This document shows, piece by piece, positions 24,996 to 26,855 of a stretch of DNA of 64,000 bases. The stretch's first letter is position 1, and each line of letters opens with the position of its first letter. A program made the translations under genes and the position numbers. The stretch lies in the NCBI GenBank assembly GCA_029667085.1, contig JARUHJ010000001.1:310001-374000 (forward strand). The letters run 5' to 3'. This stretch comes from Deltaproteobacteria bacterium IMCC39524. GTDB taxonomy: Bacteria; Desulfobacterota; Desulfuromonadia; Desulfuromonadales; BM103. The notes under the pieces were generated by a model. The model had not been told where the DNA came from, searched no databases, and was given only the letters and a program-made list of their open reading frames with translations.

Positions 24996-25391
24996 TTAAT
25001 GCTTGTTGAAAATCTGGCAACTGGTTGCACGGCTTGAGGGTAACAGGTGCCGATACCTTGCAAAGACCGCGTATCCGGCGCGAGCAGTGTGGTTGATGCC
25101 AGGTAAGCCTACGAATGAAGACAGCAGCGGGTATAGGGGTGAAGGGAGGGCCTCCCAGAGACGCCTGAAAGCTTCAACCCCGGAATAATAATGACCATCT
25201 GCATCACGTGCCTGCAGCTTCTCCTGAAATTCATCTATTGTTTTGCCGAAAGCCTCGGCGTCGAAATCAGCACTCGCAATATTAACGAACTTGACACGTT
25301 GGTCTGCGATCGAACGATAGTAACGGATCTCGGTGCTGCAGACTCCGCAGGCCCCATCGTAAAAGAGTGTCAGTGGATAGTTGATCTTCAT
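24996..25391 (-). CDS. DCC family thiol-disulfide oxidoreductase-like protein (DUF393)
   Basis: The N terminus carries the DCC signature DGACGVCSTEI (D12-G-x-C-x-x-C), after which the family is named. It has a thioredoxin-like fold predicted to do thiol-disulfide exchange. The C-terminal RAGYAVFARYRHLLP segment is also family-typical. 131 residues, no signal peptide, cytoplasmic. It converges with the MFS gene, 18 bases apart. It lies divergently from the selenoprotein operon; both encode thioredoxin-like CxxC/CxxU proteins, but no functional link is shown by the sequence. Confidence 0.88.
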   Translation of the reverse strand: MKINYPLTLFYDGACGVCSTEIRYYRSIADQRVKFVNIASADFDAEAFGKTIDEFQEKLQARDADGHYYSGVEAFRRLWEALPSPLYPLLSSFVGLPGINHTARAGYAVFARYRHLLPSSRATSCQIFNKH

Positions 25392-25570: not shown

Positions 25571-25852
25571 ATGGATCTTATCAGTCGATTGAATGCCGCA
25601 ACCTTGATTGCCCAGCAGGAAGATGATCTTCCCGATTTTCTGGCCGTGCGTGTTTATGCTATTGCTGAACAGTTGTCGGGGAGCCCTGTCTTTCAAGTCG
25701 AGATAGAAGAATTAATAGAACAACTGTCTCTCTACGACACCTATGGCCAGACCGGTTATATCGGTATGGGCGTCAACAATTACATCCTTGAAGGCACGAT
25801 CTTACGTATTGAAAAGAAGTTGTCCAATTGTGCCCAAGGGGCAAGGGAGTGA
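25571..25852 (+). CDS. Small hypothetical protein, first gene of the selenoprotein operon
   Basis: 93 residues, soluble and mostly helical by composition, with an acidic FQVEIEELIEQLSLYDTYG segment and a GYIGMGVNNYILEGTILR segment. No family recognised. It has a good promoter upstream, and its stop codon lies two bases before the start of the SelW-like selenoprotein gene, so the two are translated from one message. The SDR gene follows 15 bases further on. It is a real gene by position and codon use; function unknown. Confidence 0.6.
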   Translation: MDLISRLNAATLIAQQEDDLPDFLAVRVYAIAEQLSGSPVFQVEIEELIEQLSLYDTYGQTGYIGMGVNNYILEGTILRIEKKLSNCAQGARE

Positions 25853-25854
25853 GT

Positions 25855-26076
25855 ATGAAAGCGAGTATTGAATATTGCACGATGTGAGGTTATGAAGTGC
25901 GTGCTGTCAGTTTGGCGGCATTACTGAAGAAACATTGCGGCAATGATGTTGAATTGATCCCGTCGACCGGTGGCGTCTTTGAAGTTGTGGTTGATGGTGT
26001 GCTTGTCTATTCAAAAAAAGAGACCGGAGAGTTTCCCGATGAACAACAGCTGGTGAAACAACTGGTTAACTCATAA
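25855..26076 (+). CDS. SelW/SelT/SelH (Rdx) family selenoprotein with in-frame UGA-Sec
   Basis: Reading through the TGA at 25885-25887 as selenocysteine gives a complete 73-residue Rdx-family protein. It begins with a beta strand and the redox motif C8-T-M-U11 (IEYCTMU), then GYEVRAVSLAALLKK, the family GGVFEV strand, a VDGVLVYSKK hairpin, and ETGEFPDEQQLVKQL. Every conserved Rdx landmark lies in one frame on both sides of the TGA. An AGGGAG ribosome site lies five bases before ATG 25855. Thirteen bases after the UGA a hairpin (GTGCTGTC 25901-25908, loop AGTTT, GGCGGCAT 25914-25921) sits where bacterial SECIS elements lie. Expected function: a small thioredoxin-like selenoenzyme. selABC must be elsewhere in the genome. 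Second gene of a likely three-gene operon. Alternative: a pseudogene with a Cys-to-stop change. Confidence 0.88.
25901..25921 (+). promoter_or_regulatory. Candidate bacterial SECIS hairpin
   Basis: In RNA, GUGCUGUC pairs with GGCGGCAU (eight pairs, four of them G-U) around a loop AGUUU. It begins 13 bases after the UGA Sec codon, close to the E. coli fdhF spacing, and carries GU in the loop as SelB-binding hairpins do. The wobble-rich stem makes it a candidate, not proof. Confidence 0.5.
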
Positions 26077-26090
26077 TTGAAAGGTGGGTC

Positions 26091-26855
26091 ATGTCTGAAA
26101 AAACGGTTTTGATTACCGGCGCCTCTGCCGGTTTCGGCGAAGCCTGTGCCCGGATTTTTGCTGCTGAAGGAGCTCGCCTTATTCTGACTGCACGACGGTC
26201 TGAGAGGCTCGCGGCTTTACGTGATGAGCTAAAAGAGAGTGCTGCCGGGGTTCATATTGTTCAACTGGATGTGCGTGACCGAGCCGGTGTCGAAGGGCTG
26301 GTTGAGTCTCTCCCGGAAGATTTTCAGGCGATCGATGTGCTGGTTAACAACGCTGGCCTGGCGTTAGGCCTTGAACCCGCTCACCAGGTTGATATGGAAG
26401 ACTGGGAAATCATGGTTGATACCAATATCAAAGGCCTGATGTACTGCACCCGCGCGATTCTGCCCGGCATGGTGGAACGGAACCGGGGTCATATCGTCAA
26501 TATCAGCTCTACGGCAGGCTCTTGGCCCTATCCTGGCGGGAATGCTTACGGGGGCACCAAAGCCTTTGTGACTCAGTTTTCCCGTAACCTGAGAGCCGAT
26601 TTGGCTGGTAAGAAAGTCAGGGTAACGTGTATTCAGCCCGGTATGGCGGAAACCGAATTCTCCAATGTTCGTTTTAAAGGGGATGATGATAAGGCGGATC
26701 AATTTTATAAAGGAACAGATCCTTTGACTGCTCTTGATATTGCTGAGACTGTGGCTTGGGTGGTTGGTCGGCCGGCTCACGTAAATATCAATTCACTTGA
26801 AATTATGCCTGTGAGTCAATCCTGGGGGGCGATGACGATTCATCGTGAGGACTAG
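26091..26855 (+). CDS. Short-chain dehydrogenase/reductase (YdfG-like)
   Basis: A classical SDR of 254 residues: cofactor motif GASAGFG (10-16), NNAG (86-89), NISS with the catalytic Ser near 139-140, and Y153-x-x-x-K157. The residues around TARRSERL (34-41) suggest NADP. The overall sequence follows E. coli YdfG, the NADP-dependent serine/3-hydroxy acid dehydrogenase that also clears malonic semialdehyde; the specific substrate is inferred. The start lies 15 bases after the selenoprotein stop, so it is probably the third gene of that operon. A terminator follows 31 bases beyond the stop. Confidence 0.88.
   Translation: MSEKTVLITGASAGFGEACARIFAAEGARLILTARRSERLAALRDELKESAAGVHIVQLDVRDRAGVEGLVESLPEDFQAIDVLVNNAGLALGLEPAHQVDMEDWEIMVDTNIKGLMYCTRAILPGMVERNRGHIVNISSTAGSWPYPGGNAYGGTKAFVTQFSRNLRADLAGKKVRVTCIQPGMAETEFSNVRFKGDDDKADQFYKGTDPLTALDIAETVAWVVGRPAHVNINSLEIMPVSQSWGAMTIHRED

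Follow-up and report, generated by a model that had tools for sequence, protein, structure and literature searches.

A predicted SelW-like selenoprotein gene with an in-frame UGA in a Desulfuromonadales genome, and a candidate lineage with two such codons

Does a short stretch of DNA that a plain list of open reading frames leaves blank encode a selenoprotein, with an in-frame UGA read as selenocysteine (Sec)? The stretch lies in a window of 64 kb (G000:C1:310001-374000), and coordinates are positions in this window unless another contig is named. None of the listed open reading frames of at least 60 amino acids overlaps 25855-26076, in any frame. The frame that begins at 25855 has just one internal stop, the TGA at 25885-25887, which is at the second position of a CxxU motif. 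If this codon is read through, the product is MKASIEYCTMUGYEVRAVSLAALLKKHCGNDVELIPSTGGVFEVVVDGVLVYSKKETGEFPDEQQLVKQLVNS*. The features of the putative gene are as follows.

25855-26076, + strand: predicted SelW-like (Rdx) selenoprotein gene, 73 amino acids with one Sec; stop codon TAA at 26074-26076
25885-25887, + strand: UGA codon predicted to encode Sec, residue 11 of the CxxU motif (C8-T-M-U11)
25846-25849, + strand: ribosome-binding site, GGAG core, read directly; 5 bases before the ATG

The protein obtained by read-through matches PF10262 (Rdx) with E = 1.1e-21 over profile positions 3-72 of 74, and it scores 69.9 bits against TIGR02174 from NCBIfam (the cut-off is 34.2). This bears out the original prediction that the frame gives an Rdx-family protein with a CxxU motif if TGA is Sec. 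Another NCBIfam model, NF041051 (SelTWH_Campy), scored 79.7, under its cut-off of 88. No plasmid records matched at E = 1e-5. On the evidence of sequence and conservation described below, 25855-26076 is almost certainly a functional gene for an Rdx/SelW-like selenoprotein. The original prediction also held that standard gene calling would miss it. This is correct for plain listing of open reading frames, which shows a gap here; NCBIfam models for the family do exist, one of them with "(seleno)protein" in its name, and curated pipelines may catch the gene. The genome gains one well-supported selenoprotein, and recoded genes can be found by a reader of the raw sequence.

SelW-like (Rdx) proteins have a thioredoxin-like fold, with the CxxU motif between strand 1 and helix 1. 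By analogy, the product would be a thioredoxin-like thiol/selenol oxidoreductase, and its Cys8-Sec11 pair would form a selenenylsulfide that is probably reduced by cellular thiols. Matches to the sequences of solved structures range from 2fa8 (E = 4.8e-12), which is one of several Cys-containing Rdx proteins that share the family by sequence but have CxxC instead of CxxU, down to animal Selenoprotein W (2npb, E = 0.0026), which is an Rdx protein of low sequence similarity. According to the available excerpts of the papers, SelW-like CxxU selenoproteins from bacteria have been on record since at least 2005-2006 (PMC1088965, PMC1794560) and are also listed in PMC2398784, PMC9312934, and PMC13188914. 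Thus, the window gene is a further member of a known family, and it remains an ordinary CxxU member. In the excerpt of PMC2398784, SelW-like proteins are the most abundant selenoprotein family in marine data, with 427 sequences in the table for the Global Ocean Sampling. The excerpt of PMC1088965 describes their function as unclear, with a redox role suggested by CxxU and an interaction with glutathione, and that of PMC1794560 records SelW-like proteins in Geobacter sulfurreducens and Desulfotalea psychrophila. The window gene shares its family (PF10262, TIGR02174), the CxxU motif, the single Sec, and a SECIS element directly after the UGA with these bacterial proteins. We found no difference of kind; what belongs to the window's species is the sequence itself and the linkage to a short-chain dehydrogenase (SDR) gene. 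SELENOW also carries CxxU (PMC8508763, excerpt), and eukaryotic SECIS elements are in the 3' UTR (PMC1088965, excerpt), whereas the element here directly follows the UGA. PMC12013277 was searched for SelW, with no result.

To see how the in-frame stop is conserved, we read 110 loci codon by codon: 30 from a search of relatives and the best 80 of 84 from a second search. (These include the window's own locus, and they partly overlap, as some places were fetched twice.) The loci span Thermodesulfobacteriota, Acidobacteriota, Bacillota, Actinomycetota, Chloroflexota, Verrucomicrobiota, and other groups. Residue 11 is encoded by TGA in 109 of the 110 loci and by TGC in the other one (L124, from Rhodobacteraceae). 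Because the query had Cys at residue 11, the search was not biased toward TGA. The rarity of the Cys form agrees with PMC1794560, whose available text states that Cys homologs of SelW-like proteins are very few or absent in organisms that use Sec. A random stop in close relatives, which would have counted against the original prediction, was not seen: the relatives carry either TGA or Cys at this residue. The relatives search found a match in 50 of 98 genomes, including 9 of 11 in the genus (the window's own genome among them); the two genomes from the genus that had no match are both fragmented assemblies, and one of them is 59% complete. Across the class, 90 of 277 genomes had matches, and 97 of the 100 matches contained TGA (96 had one, and 1 had two). 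We checked the position of the codon for 35 of the 96 matches with one TGA (L022-L051, L137, L138, and L162-L164). Of the three TGA-free matches, two are partial and do not cover residue 11 (G031:C41 and G087), and the third (G122:C210) is a true Cys form, with TGC. Besides L124, residue 11 is Cys in a second locus, in the same class (L160), and in three relatives in the PDB whose alignments we inspected.

L132 (G001:C44:94629-94832, - strand), a second copy of Rdx, carries TGA at residue 11 as well as residue 14 and has altered bases in the hairpin stem; it is perhaps a decaying duplicate. The match at L133 (G031:C41:55382-55504, + strand) is limited to residues 28-70 of the protein, and this is perhaps what remains of a duplicate.

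The gene is closely spaced with its neighbors on the same strand, which are these.

25571-25852, + strand: upstream gene of the GSU3529 family (NF045727, 72.8 bits; cut-off 44)
26091-26855, + strand: downstream SDR gene, YdfG-like (PF00106, 4.2e-59)

The upstream gene stops with the TGA at 25850-25852, 2 bases ahead of the ATG, which agrees with the original description. A literature search with the term GSU3529 found no paper. The best NCBIfam match of the downstream gene is NF007829 (YdfG), with 371.4 bits, which is under the cut-off of 411; this gene is the probable operon partner of the selenoprotein gene. We compared flanks of about 1.5 kb for loci L022-L051. The SDR gene lies downstream in 11 of the 12 nearest loci (L022-L033); in the same set, a DCC1-like gene lies upstream on the opposite strand in 9, and a gene of the GSU3529 family lies upstream in 5. 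Neither the SDR gene nor the GSU3529-family gene was found in the next 18 loci (L034-L051), and DCC1 was found in one of them. By kinship, the SDR gene is linked in 9 of 9 loci from the window's genus and in 2 of 2 from a second genus (g3), and the linkage is absent from loci of two other genera in the family (L030 and L046). Since the SDR gene is found in near loci and not beyond, the linkage is local to near relatives. Within the window's genus, the selenoprotein gene would be cotranscribed with the dehydrogenase. The window's own DCC1-like gene (24996-25391, - strand; PF04134, 9.7e-22) is annotated as a thiol-disulfide oxidoreductase, and together with the selenoprotein gene it may possibly form a redox neighborhood.

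The tight coupling to neighboring genes fits with another role for a genuine Sec codon: the main product might be a truncated peptide of 10 residues, and the locus might act as a selenium sensor, with read-through affecting the dehydrogenase downstream. A further point in favor is that the efficiency of UGA decoding depends on selenium. However, the full-length protein is conserved across phyla, which implies that the full-length product matters, and the neighbors differ outside of the near relatives. We therefore consider a sensor unlikely and favor a gene for a full-length selenoprotein.

A hairpin follows the UGA.

25896-25925, + strand: predicted bacterial SECIS hairpin; core stem 25903-25909/25913-25919, apical loop GUU at 25910-25912

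When the UGA and the following 45 nt are folded with RNAfold, this hairpin forms with -13.2 kcal/mol. Its continuous 9-bp stem (13 bp if a one-base bulge is included) starts 13 bases past the UGA, as had been predicted, and the apical loop sits 22 nt past the UGA. The idea that it is a bacterial SECIS element held up in two ways: the hairpin agrees with all four bSECIS constraints that are quoted in the available part of PMC13188914, and its core helix covaries (see below). One of the 30 near loci misses the energy limit of -7.5 (L034, at -7.0 kcal/mol). Rfam yielded no hits for the window at the gathering threshold. Compared with dinucleotide shuffles, the window's hairpin has z = -1.91, and 8 of 200 shuffles were as good; when the window's own sequence is recoded synonymously, 24% of the variants fold equally well. 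Across 109 sequences, the minimum free energy relative to synonymous recodings had a mean z of -0.83 and was below zero in 85, versus mean z values of -0.14, -0.51, and +0.23 for control windows of the same length (60 sequences each). The folding energy of the whole hairpin is weak evidence for a SECIS element, so we tested a position-specific helix instead.

For covariation, we used 84 distinct stretches of 48 bases, which is what remained of the 110 loci after dropping the Cys locus (L124) and identical rows; the MAFFT alignment of these is gap-free. In the 7-bp core helix (columns 19-25/29-35), 88.3% of cells are paired, versus 76.3% in shuffled alignments, and the covariation score is 0.425, versus 0.205 for shuffles and at most 0.116 if the partners are slid by 1-3 columns. 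Both sides have changed in 59 cells, as compared to 16 in shuffles. For each of these three measures, none of 500 shuffles was as high. The number of further pair types was 15, versus 11.2 (2 of 500 shuffles were as high). Four pairs had one or more double changes, a count that is not above the shuffles (mean 4.4; 463 of 500 were as high). Two of the pairs each link two third codon positions: 21-33 (C-G 52, U-A 19, U-G 4, G-C 2, A-U 1) and 24-30 (C-G 62, G-C 16, U-G 4). Pairing between third codon positions is not well explained by constraint on the protein, although the same change recurs in near relatives, and these cells are therefore not independent. Unaided, RNAalifold recovered the inner five pairs of the core helix. 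In a synonymous-recoding test on the 28 distinct rows of L022-L051, there were 6.57 of 7 pairs, versus 4.88 expected, and all 28 rows were above their own null mean; with all rows, there were 6.18 pairs, versus 4.53 expected, and 83 of 84 were above. The bases of the outermost pair (19-35) fail to pair in 43 of the 84 sequences, and in the window's hairpin the longer outer stem lies outside the conserved part.

These results bear on whether the locus is simply an Rdx gene of the Cys type that has recently gained a nonsense mutation or that contains a sequencing error. A single stop in an otherwise complete frame would look like this, and one relative does contain a seemingly degenerate second copy (L132). 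However, all but one of the 110 loci, which come from many assemblies and many phyla, carry the same TGA, and the core helix of the hairpin after it covaries. This makes the explanation extremely improbable, and we rejected a chance stop or sequencing error.

If the UGA encodes Sec, then the genome should contain the decoding machinery, as the original prediction had stated for SelA, SelB, and tRNA-Sec. All three are present in this genome (G000; 3.78 Mb, rated as 99.99% complete), and so is selD. In a profile search, selA (620.6 bits), selB (405.5 bits), and selD (361.8 bits) were all above the curated cut-offs, and they adjoin each other on contig C2 (158492-162931). The tRNA-Sec gene is at C2 192595-192686 (75.3 bits with Rfam, where the gathering score is 47), and ARAGORN likewise called this gene a tRNA-Sec (anticodon tca). 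Once bound to the hairpin, SelB would deliver Sec-tRNA(UCA) to the UGA. A second match to the Rfam model for tRNA-Sec was also over the cut-off (48.2 bits), and we rejected it, as it is a tRNA-Trp with anticodon CCA. Decoding of the UGA as some other residue (Trp, for example) or by unspecific read-through is scarcely credible, and we rejected Trp. Although a frame that opens under an altered code leaves the identity of the residue undecided, TGA ends the upstream gene, Cys occupies the site in the only locus of the 110 without TGA as well as in L160 and the three PDB relatives, the genome has tRNA-Sec(UCA) with SelA, SelB, and SelD, and its tRNA-Trp has the anticodon CCA.

The selD gene (L010, G000:C2:158492-159415, - strand) has an in-frame TGA of its own, in the context TSG*AAK, and looks like a selenoprotein-type SelD. 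This TGA is a second, independent predicted UGA-Sec site in the genome.

While reading the loci, we noticed that two from Verrucomicrobiales MAG CPC300 carry TGA twice, at residue 8 and again at residue 11, or UxxU (L097:3001-3213 and L098:313-525, both + strand). A search of 74 genomes from this Verrucomicrobiales-related family found SelW-like matches in 22. UxxU is present in 12 of the 22 (13 loci, including L139-L147, L152, and L153), Cys8 with TGA at residue 11 is present in 9 (L148-L151, L154-L157, and G334), and the remaining genome (G323) has a partial match that does not cover the site. The two UGAs are 6 bases apart and are followed by a single hairpin, whose apical loop is 22 nt past the second UGA and 31 nt past the first. 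Every one of the 13 UxxU loci retains 6 of the 7 core pairs along with the GTT loop. As a point against, 4 of these loci have a 45-nt fold that falls short of the -7.5 limit (L135 and L136, -7.2; L141, -6.0; L143, -6.7). These sequences probably represent a SelW-like lineage with UGA at both active-site positions, which would be a diselenide SelW with two adjacent recoded stops and a single SECIS element. This lineage is more unusual than the window gene. The available excerpts of PMC9312934 and PMC13188914 give SelW-like proteins as CxxU, and in that of PMC2398784, UxxU is applied to a Prx-like family. A literature search for SelW or SelW-like with UxxU matched PMC2398784 and PMC7539508 only, which is not proof that the lineage is unpublished. 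If confirmed, the lineage provides a set of small proteins from nature with which to test how a single SECIS element serves two UGAs. In a tree built from few columns, 10 of 12 UxxU rows fall in one group (99/85 support), and the other two are placed elsewhere with weak support. As for Sec genes in the UxxU genomes, one gene was examined in one genome: selB in G098, which scored 334.8 bits and was over the cut-off.
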